Below, in pieces: positions 2,471 through 25,727 of a stretch of 64,000 nucleotides of DNA; position 1 is the first letter of the stretch, and each line of letters opens with the position of its first letter. The stretch spans positions 22,090,450 through 22,154,449 of the forward strand of contig NC_134029.1 of assembly GCF_964204645.1 (NCBI RefSeq). Direction: 5' to 3'. The notes beneath the pieces are model-generated. The model did not search any database. It saw only the letters and a list, made by a program, of their open reading frames with translations, and was not told the origin of the DNA. This stretch comes from Tubulanus polymorphus. Taxonomy: Eukaryota > Nemertea > Palaeonemertea > Tubulaniformes > Tubulanidae. Position numbers and translations under genes: made by a program.

Positions 2471-3520
2471 AGGTTCTATTCACAATCTGCTCTAGGTTTC
2501 ATTTGTAAATTGGACCGGAAAAGATTCCTCGAAAGAAACCTTTAACCGCGGTGGCCGTGTCCAGTTTCTAATTCATACTAAATCCTATTAGATGATGATT
2601 AAGTCGCGTCTTCATCGACGAATCTGAAGAGATTCATTAACGAGACAACGGCGCGATCGAATCGAGAAAGTAGATTCCTCCGACCACCGAGATGATTGTC
2701 GTTTTTCTCATAAACCGGACAATAAACGATTGTAAACGAGTGATTCGTTATCGTCACGGCGATAATGAGAGTTATTATTCATGATCTTTCGACGTTGTTT
2801 TTTTATTTCCAGCGCGCGTATTCCGATCGCGGCACAATTCGGTATTGTCCGCGTTTTTGGCGTCGCGCGATTTATCAGTAAAAACGACTGCGACGTGTAA
2901 ATCATTCATTTCGTGGCCGAATCATCGCGATTATTTATTTATCGGCAATTGCCGAGTTATGACCAACAAAAGGCAGCCGTTTCCCGCGCGCGGCTTTACA
3001 GCGACTTCAGTTTTTATACCGTTTTCTATGAATATCGTTGTCGGCGTTCCGTCGAGAATGTTTTTGTTTGGAAATTGATCGTTGTAATCCGACGTAACCT
3101 CGGCGTTACAATACGGCATTGTTTCAAAACTTCACATTCTATTCTCGAGCGGTTATTAATGGACCTATAGAGGTTAAATCCCAGATAAATGCCCGGTTTT
3201 TACAAATGATTGATTCCCGAAGGTATGAATGAACGCCGCAATTAATACTGCTTTCAATTTCAAAGCATTTTTAACGCCGTGTAGAGATAAGATCGCCATC
3301 AATCTTTCATCGAAATAGATAAGTTCACATCTTTATTTCTAATTTATTGGACACAAAACTTTATCCTAATCTATTTAATCCTAATGACAACTGATGACTC
3401 AAAACATTATTTATCTGTTATGAAAAGCACTCCTGATAAGGTTATAGTTGAGGTTGTGTCTATTGCATTGATTTATTTTTTAAAAAACCTAGATTAAACT
3501 AAAAAATTATTAACCCCTCG

Positions 3521-18878: not shown

Positions 18879-20221
18879 TTATTTCGGCGATTTCGTGGCT
18901 AAAATCAACGCGACGATCAGTCCGTAGAGACCTAATACTTCAGCGAAAATGAGAATAAGGATCATTCCGACGAATAGCCTCGGCTGTTGCGCTGTACCTC
19001 GCACGCCGGCGTCACCTACGATTCCGATAGCGAATCCGGCAGCTACTCCGCTCAATCCTACACTAAGTCCGGCGCCCAAATGTACAAAACTCCTGCAAAT
19101 GAGGAATTCATCGATAAAAATCAAAACTGCTTAAATTTGCAGAGCATAAGAGTTCTTGCAGATCGGGGAATCCAAAACTCCCTGTGACTCTTGACCAAAA
19201 ATTCTTTAATTAATGAAATCATCAGCCATCCCCCAGGGAGTAGCTTCTTATCTGAAAGAGGTTCTCTGTGCCACTTTTCACCAGCAAGAACAAAAAGATA
19301 TACCAAATTATCCCTGACTTTTCCCTGATCTGATCCCCGAGAAACTGAGGTAGCATTTAAGATATGAACTTAAGTAGATACCAAACAATTTATTCTTGGG
19401 GACCCTGAATATTTGACCCAAATGGCTCAAGGAAACAGGAGTAAGAAAGAATCTACTTAAGTCACCTGAGACAGAGATCACTTAGAATGTAACAACTTAC
19501 AGAAATAGTGTGTATTCAGTTGGATCAGCACTAAGAGAATTAGCAATCAACGCAGCTACAACTAAACCATAAATAGCGATAATACCGGCCATAACAACTG
19601 GAATAACGGATTTCATTATAAACTCTGGTCGCATCACCGACATCGTCGCGATACCAGTACCGGATTTAGCTGTTCCGTAAGCGGCGCCAAGGGCTGAAAA
19701 ATATCAAAACAGAAAATATGATTACGTAAAACTTCCAAGTCGACCCTGGGTGTCTGATTGTATTCTACCCTTAAATATATCAAGCACTGCTGGGTAAAGC
19801 TATTTAGAAAGGGAAGATTGTTTACCAAAATTTTTTATTTATATATTTAGATTCTGAAATTATATAAACTGATGAACATGGGTATGATAGATAGATTATG
19901 ATTTATGAAACTCTTTTCGACCTAAGGCTAAAGCCTCAGCTCAATTCATTCCATAGCTCTATTTAGTCTAGCTCTGGTGGAGTAGATTTGTAAAAGGGAC
20001 GAACATCAAAATATTGAGATTGATAATATCATAAATAATCACAGCTGAAATAAATGAATGAGGATACATGATGCCGGATCCGACCGGACCGGGCACGACC
20101 TGTCTTTTCTGTGTGAAGTGAATATTTCATTTTCAATCGACTCACCGCTGAATACTATAGCTGATGTGGCGCCCATTACACCGAAGAAAGGTGTGTATAA
20201 CGGTTGTTCAACGTCTGCCAT
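18879..20221 (-). CDS. ATP6V0C: V-type H+-ATPase 16-kDa proteolipid subunit c
   Basis: Subunit of the membrane c-ring of the vacuolar proton pump, which acidifies lysosomes, endosomes and secretory vesicles. Three exons in transcript order: 20221-20146, 19693-19501, 19092-18879. They join to 160 codons, against about 155 in vertebrates. Visible family blocks are [20 protein letters not shown] (TM1), [19 protein letters not shown] (luminal loop) and the fourth transmembrane helix with [20 protein letters not shown], whose Glu is the proton-carrying carboxylate. [18 protein letters not shown] is the glycine-rich TM3. The start is fixed by [14 protein letters not shown]. It is divergently paired with PWP2. 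The minus-strand poly(A) signal is at 18694-18699. Intron 2 holds a dispersed repeat shared with PWP2. Confidence 0.97.
19141..19325 (-). repeat. Dispersed ~180-bp repeat in ATP6V0C intron
   Basis: Read on the minus strand, this stretch matches 25290-25475 in the last PWP2 intron. Shared blocks are 'agtggcaca' followed by 'ctctttcagataag'-like and 'ccctgggggatggctgatga'-like segments, then 'gaatttt', 'ggattcccc' and 'gatctgcaagaac'. The two copies lie in introns of adjacent genes in opposite genomic orientation. Class is unknown; probably a short non-autonomous element. Confidence 0.65.
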
Positions 20222-20856
20222 TATTCTTAGTTTTTCTGACGCTTCGAATTTAGAAAATTTTCAAAAAGATTTTGACAGCTCGTCGTAGAGGGTAGCGATT
20301 CTAGCGAAAATGGCGAATGAAGGAGGGTCATGTGACAGTGTTCGGATGGCGCATTCTGTAAGCCGCACGTCGATTGGTTAGATTTTTGAGAAAATCGAAT
20401 CAGAAGCCAATCAGCGATCGTTTAATGGAAACGTTTAGCCAAGCTAGATGACCGTGACGTCACCGCGGCAGCTGAGTCACAATTCAATTCAATATACATT
20501 TATTCGCATAAATTTTTACTCGAAAAAACAATTCAGCCAAATTTAAAAGACTATCGAGCATTTGAATGACGGAAATAATCGAATATTCCGTATATGAAAT
20601 AGAAATTTAGGAGATGGAGGAAGATTTCAAACATTTGACCGGTCACATGACTGCCGGCAGTCATATGACTGGTCACATGATATCGTACAAATACACGTGC
20701 ACTTGTTTGGAAAATTTGTAAACGAAAAGTGAAACCAAATCCTCGGGCGTTCCCCACCTAACGATCGGTGTTTAGTCCCTTATCATGATATATATGGTCG
20801 TTTGATAAAAGAAATTTCTCAACTCTTCGTTTCAACGGGTTTTTAACTTCGTCAAA
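20222..20856. promoter_or_regulatory. Divergent ATP6V0C/PWP2 promoter, E-box and CRE cluster
   Basis: 635 bp separate the two start codons. Palindromic or near-palindromic 10-mers of the M-box/CLEAR type occur four times: GTCATGTGAC (20327-20336), GTCACATGAC (20642-20651), GTCATATGAC (20660-20669) and GTCACATGAT (20672-20681). A canonical E-box CACGTG is at 20694-20699. A full CRE (TGACGTCA) lies at 20455-20462 and an AP-1-like TGAGTCA at 20473-20479. CCAAT-type motifs sit near 20375 (reverse) and 20407. In vertebrates V-ATPase genes are driven by TFEB/MITF through GTCACGTGAC and CACATG variants; that this holds here is inference. Confidence 0.6.
20637..20674. repeat. Near-perfect 19-bp-arm palindrome containing E-boxes
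   Basis: Arms 20637-20655 and 20656-20674 abut directly and match at 17 of 19 positions. Each carries a TCAYATGA core (TCACATGA and TCATATGA). The symmetry may reflect paired binding sites for dimeric bHLH-Zip factors, or a DNA cruciform. Confidence 0.7.
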
Positions 20857-23800
20857 ATGAAGTTTTCATACAGGGTTCGTGCACCACAATCAATGCAAAG
20901 CAAATCAAATACATAACATTTATTGAATTCTGTAACTAAACTTCTTGGCAGGCCTATTAGTAGACGAATGAATGAAATCTTCAAACGCCTTTGAAAATCG
21001 GAAATCTCTGAATATAGATTTTGATTTAGTTATGATATAATATCAACTGTTATTAGCCTTAATTGATTAGTTAATTGACCCTATTTAATTAGTTAATTGA
21101 TAACTGGATATAGTTTATCTTGTTTTATAAATTGATATATTACAATTTTGATTACATTTCAGTTTTCAAATCTTCTCGGTACTGTTTATCGTAAAGGGAA
21201 CTTATCATTCTCTCCTGATGGCAACACCGTTATCAGTCCTGTTGGCAACCGCATCAGCTTGTTTGATCTCAAAAAGTAAGCTTTTTTGCTGTTTCATATT
21301 TGAACAAAAATATGGAGAATTTTCATTTGGCTTTTAATTGTCTTGCAGCAATAAATCGGAGACCTTACCAGTGGAGGGTAAAATGAACTTGTCTGCTTTA
21401 GGTTTATCACCAGATGGAAATATACTTATAGCTATAGATGAAGGTAGTGTATATAATCCTATGTTTTAGAGAAATTTGCACGTAAACAGTGCCCTATAAT
21501 GATCTCCTGTGTCTCGATATTCTCATTTGTAGAAGGAGAAGCTATGCTGATAAGTATGATAAGTAAAACTGTCTTGCATTACCATCACTTTCACGGAAGC
21601 GTCAACTCAATATCGTTTAGCCCAAATGGAAAGCAAGTATTCGCACTTTGGGTTCAGAACTAATTTCATAACGCAAAGCTGATACTAATTTTCATTTTTG
21701 CCTTTCAGAAAATTTGCGATAACCAAAAATAAAATAATCCAGATGTTCCACGCTCCTGGAAAAACGAAAGAATTCAATCCTTTTGTACCGTATCGAACGT
21801 TCTACGGAGCTTTCGATGAAACAACCTGCATCGATTGGACAACTGATTCACGGTAATGTATCTATAAATCAATTCGTTGTCTAATAGTATTTTATGTAGG
21901 TCCTAAAACTGTAATTGATTTTGCAGAGTTTTTTGCGTTGGAGGTAAGGATATGAACACTCGTGTTTACGGAGCTCAGCCTTTCCGAAATTTGATAATCT
22001 ACTCTATTGGAGGACACAGCGATGCTATAGTTGGAACATTCTTCGAAGCAGATTCATTAGATGTATCCTTTGGAAAGAAATTCTTTATGAAACCATGTAA
22101 AAATGTAAAAATTATGGTATATTCGATTATTTACATCATTCAAATGCTCGATCGTCTGTAAAAATTTGTTGCTATTTTGCTGTAAAACTCTTTAACTCTC
22201 ATACAGCTGTACACTTTAAGTTCAAATGGACAGTTATGCGTTTGGGAATGCAACACAGACCTCGATGGCTTGTTACCTTTCGAAGAGAAGAAAGTAACGT
22301 CAGATGAGGAAAGTGATCTTGATGATGATGAGAAAAAAGCAGAAAAAGAAAAAGGTATCGGTAGTTAAATGAATGGAATATTGGTATTTTTGTTTAGTTG
22401 AGATTTACTTATTGTTTTGATAATATTCATTTGTTCATTTCAAGCTCTCATGAAAGCTGCACAGGAAAGTAAAGATGAGAAAATACTTTTCAAACGACTT
22501 GCCAAGTAAGTGACATTACTCTCACTTTGATTCTTCTGAAGGAGAACATCTTAGTTGAACTAATGTATTTATATAATGTTGTATAGACATCGCTACAAAG
22601 ACAACAAAAGAGATGGTAGTCAACATACTCAACTGACATGCGCTATGTTTCACAAAAAGTCACATATTTTGGTCGCCGGTTTCGAAGATGGATCTTTCTT
22701 GCTTCATGAAATGCCAGATTTCAACTTGATTCATTCTCTAAGGTAAGAGTTGTTGAAGAAATCGGTTACCGGTACTTTAATCTTAATGTTCATTTGTGAC
22801 TGGGTATTTTCATCCACTTTCAGTATATCCAATCAAATGATCTCATCGATTGCCATCAATACGACTGGTGATTGGATAGCATTAGGATGTTCAGGTCTAG
22901 GGCAACTGTTGGTCTGGGAATGGCAAAGTGAATCCTATGTACTGAAACAGCAAGGCCATTTCAATAATATGACATGTCTAGTCTATTCACCAGATGGTCA
23001 GTACCTAGTGACTGGTGGTGATGATGGAAAAGTATGTGAAATAATTGTCTGCATGCAATTTCTTGAAAATGAATTAATTCCTAACCTGGTTGAATTGATT
23101 ATTTCCTTCTAGGTGAAAGTTTGGAACACTAGTAGTGGATTTTGCTTCGTAACATTTTCTGAACATAATGCCGGTATAACAGGTGTAGCATTTAGTCAAA
23201 GTGGCCAAGTAGTGTTGTCGAGTTCGTTAGATGGTACTGTACGGGCTTTTGATTTGAACAGGTAATATATTTAGGAAGGATGTGTTGCTTAGACTAAGGT
23301 GAAATGAAAAACAACTCAATCCGCTCTGTCTATTTCAGGTACCGTAATTTCCGGACGTTTACTTCACCACAGCCTGTCCAATTCTCCAGTCTTGCTATTG
23401 ATCCTAGTGGAGAAATCGTCTGCGCTGGAGGAATGGATTCTTTTGATATTTTTGTATGGTCACTACAGACTGGACGACTTCTGGATGTAAGATAATTTAT
23501 TATTTGAAAATATTCTTTACTCAACATATTGTATTCATATTTGTAATTTGTATCTTGCATTATTTTCAGATTTTGTCGGGACATGAAGGTCCTGTATCAG
23601 CGGTTGTATTCAGCACTACAAGTTCTATATTAGCCAGCGCTTCTTGGGACAAAACTGTCAAACTTTGGGATGTGTTCGAAAATAAAGGTTCTAAAGAGAC
23701 CTTCAGATTCAATACTGATGGTGAGGAGTGATTGAAAGTGTTTTTATGGCAGTTAAGAGAAAAAACTCCTGAATAAATTGATCATACTAAATTCTATTTC

Positions 23801-25727
23801 AGTGCAAGCATTAGCATATCGTCCTGATGGGAAGGAGATTGCGGTGGGCACATTGGATGCGCAGATATCATTTTGGGATGTACAGAACGGTACTCAAACC
23901 GGATCAATCGAGGGCAGACATGATCTCGGATATACACGAAAAGATACGGACAAAATAACAGCTAAAACTTCATCAGTAAACAAGTTAGTTTCTTTGAATA
24001 AGTTGAAGACTTAGGCAGGTTTCAATTGGTTTCTACGGATTCTAGAATACTCTTCTAGCGTGTTCGCTTGGACCAGGATACACTCTTACCAATTTTGGAA
24101 TCGCGTTATCTGTAAACCTGATTAAAGGCCAGTAGAGTTTGCAATCCAGAATTCCTATTCTTGTTAATTGTAGTATGTTCAAATGAAACTTGCCTTTCTC
24201 TTGGAATTTTTATAGATTGTTCTTTTTATTGATGTTTGAACTTTTTTCTTGCACAGGTCGTTCTCTACTATATCGTACACAGCCGATGGTAAATGTATCC
24301 TGGCTGGTGGACGGTCAAAGAATGTTTGTATTTACTCCGTTGAGGATCAGATGCTTATCAAGAAATTTGAAGTTTCTTGTAATTTATCATTTAATGGAAT
24401 GGAGGTATTTTCTATGGAATCATTTCGGAAGAAGGTCTGGGTTAGAAGGTTTTATATAGAATAAAAAATGTCGCAACTGTTACTTTTATCGTAGGAATAT
24501 CTTGACCGACGAAAAATGACTGAATGGGGTAGCTTAGCTTTAGTGGACTCAGCTGATGGTAAATCTTTATCGCTGCCGGGAGTGAAGAAAGGTGATATGA
24601 GTTCTAGACACTGGAAACCTGAAGTACGAGTTTATGGAGTATCTTTCTCGCCAACTGGTAGGTTTAAAATTAAGTGCTTCGCAAGATTTTATCCTGAATC
24701 AAAACTTGATAGTTTCCATTTATTCTATATTTTAGGTAGGGCCTGGGCATCGACCACTACTGAAGGACTGCTGATCTACTCATTAGACAATAATCTGACA
24801 TTTGATCCATTTGAGCTCGATATCGATATCACCCCAGAGAACGTTAAGGGAACGTTGAAAGATAACAATTACTCTACAGCACTGATGCTCGCATTTCGTC
24901 TCAATGAACAGAATCTGATTCAGCAAGTTCTAGAAACTATTCCATTACAATCAAGTAAGCAAAATAAACCGGTTATATCCCCTTGAGAATTTTGTCTTTC
25001 GGAAAGTGATGTTTATTTTGTCTTCGTAGTTGAGCTCATTTGTCAGTCACTGCCCGACGTCTATGTGGACAAACTATTGGCCCATCTCGGCTCCGCGCTA
25101 GAAACGAGTCCTCATCTTGAGTTCTATATGAACTGGTGTCAGAAATTGCTGTACAATCAAGGATCGAAATTGAAACAGCGATCGCAGTCGGTCATCGCGC
25201 ATTTACGAGCTGTGCAGAAAATCCTCAATCGACGAAAAGAAGACATCGGAAAAATGTAAGTCTCATTATCCCGATAACAGTCATCATCAACTCTCAGTTC
25301 TTACAGATCAGGAAAATCAGGGAATTCCGGATTAATGTTTGTGTTTTTGGTGTCTTCTCGTCCTTGCTAGTGACAAGTGGCACAAGGAATCTCTGAAAAA
25401 GAATCCCCCACTGGGGATATCTAATGATTTAATCAGGGAATTTCGGATTCCCGGATCTGTAAGAACCCATTCTCTCGTATTATTCTCATCTTGTCTATAT
25501 ATGTTCATTGTAGGTGTGATCAGAATCGTTATTCTCTTCAATATTTGATAACACTTTCACAGTTGAAAAATAAACGTAAAGCCGATAGTCAGGCAGCCGA
25601 CCTAGATAAAGAGAACGAAGATAACGAAGGCAATGAGGAAATGGATGAAGATGATAATGACGATGATGTAGCATTGCCTTCTAACTGGGAATCAGATTCA
25701 GATGATGTCGAAACATTAATGACCTGA
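20857..25727 (+). CDS. PWP2: PWP2, WD-repeat component of the SSU processome
   Basis: Subunit of the UtpB complex, needed for 18S rRNA maturation in the nucleolus. Nineteen exons: 20857-20874, 21163-21275, 21349-21443, 21533-21632, 21709-21852, 21927-22062, 22207-22354, 22445-22505, 22587-22742, 22824-23031, 23113-23261, 23339-23486, 23570-23720, 23803-23983, 24257-24404, 24495-24657, 24736-24954, 25030-25255, 25514-25727. They sum to 925 codons against about 919 in human. Diagnostic segments are the start MKFSYRFSNLLGTVYRKG, GQLLVWEWQSESYVLKQQGH, YRNFRTFTSP, LSGHEGPVSA and RKMTEWGSLAL. Two tandem WD40 propellers are followed by the Utp12-type helical domain and an acidic tail. Intron 4 has a GC donor (GCAAGT at 21633); a GT donor would break the frame. 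Exon 1 is only 18 bp. Poly(A) signal AATAAA at 25742. Confidence 0.97.
21633..21638 (+). other. Non-canonical GC splice donor (PWP2 intron 4)
   Basis: The exon ends GGA AA and the intron starts GCAAGT; the acceptor TTTCAG ends at 21708. Joining 21632 to 21709 gives SPNGKKFAITK, exactly the family sequence. The nearby GT at 21637 would add bases and shift the frame. GC-AG introns are a known minority class with consensus AG|GCAAGT. Confidence 0.85.
25290..25475 (+). repeat. Dispersed ~180-bp repeat in last PWP2 intron
   Basis: Partner of the repeat at 19141-19325, in inverted genomic orientation. It also contains its own imperfect inverted ends, with 'gggaattccgga' near 25320 and 'gggaatttcggattcccgga' near 25437. 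This suggests a short element with related terminal motifs. Confidence 0.6.

Follow-up and report, generated by a model that had tools for sequence, protein, structure and literature searches.

Which factors might act on a promoter shared, head to head, by a V-ATPase gene and a ribosome-biogenesis gene in the nemertean Tubulanus polymorphus? The question was raised by a 64,000-nucleotide stretch (hereafter the window) corresponding to C5:22090450-22154449 of the 268-Mb genome. The ATP6V0C gene, encoding the V-ATPase 16 kDa proteolipid, occupied positions 18879 to 20221 on the minus strand, with three coding exons and a start codon at 20219-20221. Its joined exons matched the V-ATPase 16 kDa proteolipid with an E-value of 2.7e-72, and two of them carried the Pfam ATP-synt_C domain. 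On the plus strand, PWP2/UTP1 (SSU processome) extended from position 20857 to 24986, the latter being the end of the last exon examined rather than of the gene; from its start codon (20857-20859) it reads MKFSYR|FSNLLGTVYRKGN..., and its joined N-terminal exons matched human PWP2 (7mq8; E 3.8e-93). The names and divergent orientation given to both genes in the preliminary description were thus correct. The 635-bp intergenic region between them (20222-20856, no strand) contains the promoters of both genes, and titles and abstracts of the literature naming both genes yielded nothing relevant on a known ATP6V0C/PWP2 shared promoter. A single full-length copy of the region was present in the 268-Mb genome, its only further DNA matches being the quasi-palindrome of the region with itself and, inside a PWP2 intron, a partial inverted copy of 54 bp (window positions 22113-22166 versus 20539-20592 in the promoter, 85% identical).

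The region possessed four TCAYRTGA sites, all of the GTCAYATGAY type. One MITF/TFE-type site, GTCATGTGAC (20327-20336, minus strand, where it reads GTCACATGAC), was located 105 bp upstream of the ATP6V0C ATG and 11 bp from AAAATGGCG, a YY1-like promoter word (20307-20315, plus strand). The three others formed a cluster, separated from the PWP2 ATG by about 175-215 bp and from the ATP6V0C ATG by about 420-460 bp, comprising the MITF/TFE-type site GTCACATGAC (20642-20651, plus strand), GTCATATGAC (20660-20669, no strand), which has a CATATG core with MITF flanks, and the MITF/TFE-type site GTCACATGAT (20672-20681, plus strand). The first two of these together made up a 28-bp palindrome with one mismatched pair (GTCACATGACTGCCGGCAGTCATATGAC). 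A CACGTG (20694-20699; context ATACACGTGCAC, flanks ATA...CAC) was found about 158 bp upstream of the PWP2 ATG, and a palindromic CRE, TGACGTCA (GTGACGTCACCG), at 20455-20462 (no strand). These four 10-mers, the CACGTG and the single TGACGTCA had been named in the preliminary description, and all were present as described. Two CCAAT boxes (ATTGG, 20373-20377; CCAAT, 20407-20411) and a single match to the AP-1-like TGAGTCA (20473-20479, plus strand) were also detected.

That the sites clustered by chance, or came with a transposon as a palindrome without regulatory role, appears extremely improbable. TCAYRTGA occurred four times in the 635-bp region, where its frequency in the rest of the window predicts 0.04 (Poisson 1e-7), the other 63.4 kb containing four further copies; GTCAYATGAY occurred four times in the region and once in the other 63.4 kb (expected 0.01). 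Dinucleotide-preserving shuffling of the 635 bp, repeated 20,000 times, never gave more than two TCAYRTGA or more than one GTCAYATGAY, and three TCAYRTGA were thus reached in none (0/20,000). The motif number was therefore greater than in random DNA, one of the two comparisons on which the preliminary description had staked its proposal. The single CACGTG (expected 0.04) and the single TGACGTCA (expected 0.02) were each only mildly surprising. A short palindromic stretch houses three of the sites, and some paired sites elsewhere in the genome are repeat copies or minisatellites, as would suit an origin in repeats; against this, the region is single-copy and other V-ATPase genes bear the same site at their starts (see below). 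Chance was rejected by the shuffles and the Poisson probability, and a transposon or repeat origin by the single copy, so that this reading is already strongly disfavoured. The region had been chosen by eye out of 64 kb, a choice of which the within-genome replication is independent. Genome-wide, GTCACATGAC occurred 840 times versus 407 for the reversed word, a twofold general excess.

The V-ATPase genes were located through Pfam families or a chimeric protein query modelled on fly N-termini, and their starts were examined afterwards. V0d had GTCATGTGAT at -73 and V1E had GTCACATGAT at -86. In V1C, GTCACGTGAG adjoined AAAATGGCG in a presumed non-coding first exon, the stretch GTCACGTGAGTACAAAATGGCG lying about 450 bp before the ATG with a presumed intermediate intron; a UGT-like gene was recognized by eye upstream of V1C. 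V1D had its site (AATCATGTGACC, about +160) only in intron 1. Overall, three of the four V-ATPase genes with a readable start possessed a site no more than 600 bp upstream of it (P = 2e-4 to 1e-3 under two background rates), a probability that is approximate because the 600-bp limit was picked after the positions had been seen. Start regions were read as sequence for these four genes; V1B, V1G and V0a owe their placement solely to the coordinates of pattern matches, and V1A, V1F, V1H and V0b were outside the survey.

The proximity of the site to AAAATGGCG was a recurrent feature at the genome level, as TCAYRTGA was found within 30 bp of this word at 100 and 58 places, compared to 0 and 1 for the reversed controls. 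The first of these counts corresponds to GTCAYRTGA lying at most 30 bp upstream of AAAATGGCG in the whole genome (100 places versus 0 for the reversed pattern), a contrast that overstates the enrichment, given the rarity of the AAAATGGCG control word and the presence of repeat copies among the listed places. The 100 places included V1B, V1C, the V1G start codon and a hexosaminidase gene. For V1G (C7:19393740-19393766), the site lay just before the ATG, right at the Met-Ala start, this ATG being the V1G start codon according to the protein-match coordinates. For V1B, the listed place (C2:3945750-3945773) was about 2 kb upstream of the first located V1B exon, on the V1B strand. Three V-ATPase genes were thus near listed places versus 0.009 expected (P about 1e-7), although it was V1C and the hexosaminidase that had suggested the pattern.

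A blind search of the genome for two sites at most 30 bp apart returned 41 hits. Ten of these were copies of a single repeat, 14 fell in a minisatellite and one was a double count, which left 16 places. These included ATP6V0C (V0c), the promoter of a GH20 beta-hexosaminidase (Pfam E 2.7e-14; TCATGTGAGTCATGTGAC at L044:3001-3018) and a spot upstream of V0a. The latter paired sites (C6:130825) lay beside AAAATGGCGGCG, 3.2 kb before the first coding exon of V0a, and may correspond to the V0a promoter. The remaining places were repeats, coding sequences, or close to genes not identified as lysosomal. Paired sites therefore held only partly as a general signature of lysosomal genes, several of the 16 being coding or minisatellite (L043, L051, L047 and L042, the last with repeated units). 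Single GTCACATGAC sites were rejected as a lysosome marker: by eye, none of eight loci taken in list order (L001-L008) had an obvious lysosomal gene nearby.

Several repeats bearing these words were observed along the way. Upstream of a ZIP zinc transporter (L047, C6:932307-938349), three GTCACATGAC sites at positions 2921-3044 of the locus lay in GGTCACATGACCTAG-like repeated units, which may represent a minisatellite. A minisatellite of 30-bp units at C5:23616752-23617240 (L026-L039), probably coding, had GTCACATGAC in nearly every unit. On C1:13832394-13837275, GTCACATGAC recurred at intervals of 1627 bp, which points to long units arrayed in tandem, and a dispersed repeat (GTCATATGATAGACCCTTCTATTTCACATTCTCATATGA) with two CATATG sites was present in about ten copies (L013, L014, L016-L018, L020 and others).

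The hexosaminidase locus (L044, C5:1851178-1857195) resembled the ATP6V0C locus in its arrangement, the gene being head-to-head with RPS6 (Pfam E 1.2e-33). The RPS6 ATG was at L044:2934 on the minus strand (exon MK|GTAAA). A gap of 93 bp separated it from the first ATG of the hexosaminidase, at L044:3028, and both MITF-type TCATGTGA sites were inside this gap. Hexosaminidase/RPS6 is thus a second lysosomal/ribosome gene pair sharing a promoter with MITF-type sites, and a new point; two such pairs do not make a rule. Taken together, a CLEAR/M-box site was common to V0d, V1E, V1C, V1G, V1B, V1D (in intron 1) and the hexosaminidase, and probably to V0a (upstream).

The genome encoded a MITF/TFE homologue, split over exons at C3:780418-782076. 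Its joined bHLH-Zip exons had MITF as best PDB match (E 1.6e-38), followed by TFEB (1e-31), with SREBP and USF at about 1e-7 (USF E 3e-7). Another bHLH exon, resembling BMAL/ARNTL (NHSEIEKRRRDKMNMYIGELSTLIPM), was recognized by eye at C11:650421-653576 (L085). Since the same 8-mer was found at most other readable V-ATPase starts and at a lysosomal hydrolase, and since MITF/TFE is encoded, the MITF/TFE-type control of a V-ATPase gene proposed in the preliminary description gained support. Predicted control of ATP6V0C by MITF/TFE (CLEAR, M-box) is accordingly the best reading of the sites and is well supported as far as sequence can indicate. The regulon would be readable from sequence alone because, in this animal, V-ATPase and lysosomal genes are marked by a MITF/TFE element with a CACATG core.

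The CLEAR/dCLEAR V-ATPase regulon is already known from vertebrates and insects; the ATP6V0C instance is new. In insects, the V-ATPase element dCLEAR is TCACATGA/TCATGTGA; it occurs close to the start or within the first intron, and Vha16-1 (V0c) has many copies of it (PMC10452791). This Drosophila Mitf regulon and the T. polymorphus genes have in common the 8-mer, the gene set, a MITF/TFE-type factor, the position of the sites near the start or in intron 1, and several copies at the V0c gene. They differ in that V0c is here head-to-head with PWP2, in another animal, that one copy has a CATATG core, and that the sites often adjoin AAAATGGCG. With the vertebrate CLEAR network (GTCACGTGAC; TFEB/TFE3/MITF), the flanks and the V-ATPase and lysosomal hydrolase targets are shared, whereas the core is here mostly CACATG instead of CACGTG, closer to that of the M-box.

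Sites resembling GTCACGTGAC are bound by USF as well as by the MITF/TFE family. USF or another constitutive bHLH-Zip factor could thus read the sites as housekeeping elements, without nutrient control, and the same words adjoin AAAATGGCG at about 100 places genome-wide, far beyond V-ATPase genes. We consider this improbable given the over-representation of V-ATPase and lysosomal genes at the sites, the presence of a MITF/TFE gene (in a factor search that left out USF) and the insect MITF element, which has a CACATG core with T/A flanks (PMC10452791). Sites bound by MITF bear 5'T and/or 3'A flanks, and the highest ChIP peaks are observed at double sites (PMC7427332).

Concerning the PWP2 side, ribosome-biogenesis genes including PWP2 carry CACGTG across holozoans, with the flanks MAA...YG in fly, and the core promoters of fly ribosome-biogenesis genes lack CACGTG in the opposite flank context, KKY...RMK, to which the CLEAR type belongs (PMC2570694). 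The PWP2-side CACGTG is unlike a MITF site because its nearest flanks are A (before) and C (after), and by these flanks it would be of the Myc/ribosome-biogenesis rather than the MITF type. Its distance from the ATG is within the 600-bp limit of that regulon, and ATACACGTGCA matched the fly extended flank MAACACGTGYG at three of five flank positions. The similarity to the holozoan E(CG) regulon (Myc/Max; PMC2570694) lies in a CACGTG near the start of a gene on the published holozoan list, and the difference in the partly matched extended flank and in the site standing about 158 bp before the ATG.

The triple cluster could, together with the CACGTG, be mainly the bHLH-Zip element of PWP2 (read by Myc/Max, USF or MITF), ATP6V0C using the site at 20327-20336 only. 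The cluster is indeed nearer to the PWP2 ATG than to that of ATP6V0C, the single site at about -105 with its nearby AAAATGGCG resembles the layout of other V-ATPase genes, and CACGTG is a conserved feature of PWP2 (PMC2570694). We nevertheless regard such a division as rather unlikely: TCACATGA with T/A flanks is not a ribosome-biogenesis signature, CLEAR-like-flanked CACGTG being absent from such promoters in fly (PMC2570694), paired sites were also found at the hexosaminidase and upstream of V0a, and insect Vha16-1 (V0c) has many dCLEAR copies too (PMC10452791).

In our preferred reading, the region is quite probably a bidirectional promoter with two separable E-box classes, MITF/TFE sites for ATP6V0C and a Myc/Max-type CACGTG for PWP2. 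The four T/A-flanked TCAYRTGA sites would place ATP6V0C in the MITF/TFE (CLEAR/M-box) regulon. When lysosomes are stressed or TORC1 activity is low, MITF/TFE in its dephosphorylated form would move into the nucleus and bind the four sites, with probable cooperativity at the triple cluster; this binding would raise ATP6V0C together with other V-ATPase genes. The CACGTG with A/C flanks beside PWP2 would act as a Myc/Max-type ribosome-biogenesis element serving that gene. Binding, activation, nutrient response and the gene served by the triple cluster are all predictions of this model. Two further ideas of the preliminary description, an action of the MITF-type sites on PWP2 and opposite nutrient responses of the two genes, are likewise hypotheses.

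More broadly, compact divergent promoters might couple lysosomal and ribosome genes (ATP6V0C/PWP2, hexosaminidase/RPS6) under MITF/TFE sites, one nutrient-sensing factor setting both the growth and breakdown arms, or Myc and MITF/TFE competing for them. We view this as a speculative and unlikely extension. For mammals, MYC and MiT/TFE are reported as opponents at lysosomal genes (PMC6689058). ATP6V0C/PWP2 and hexosaminidase/RPS6 offer simple natural constructs for the action of MITF/TFE versus Myc on a shared promoter.

The palindromic CRE TGACGTCA of the preliminary description was present in the proximal promoter at 20455-20462, the claim for this region resting on one site. CREB/ATF input to V-ATPase genes is possible, as the V1E promoter had TTGACGTCACCG at -197 from the ATG (L071, reverse complement). 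The word TGACGTCACCG was common to the ATP6V0C and V1E promoters, with CCAAT boxes near each.
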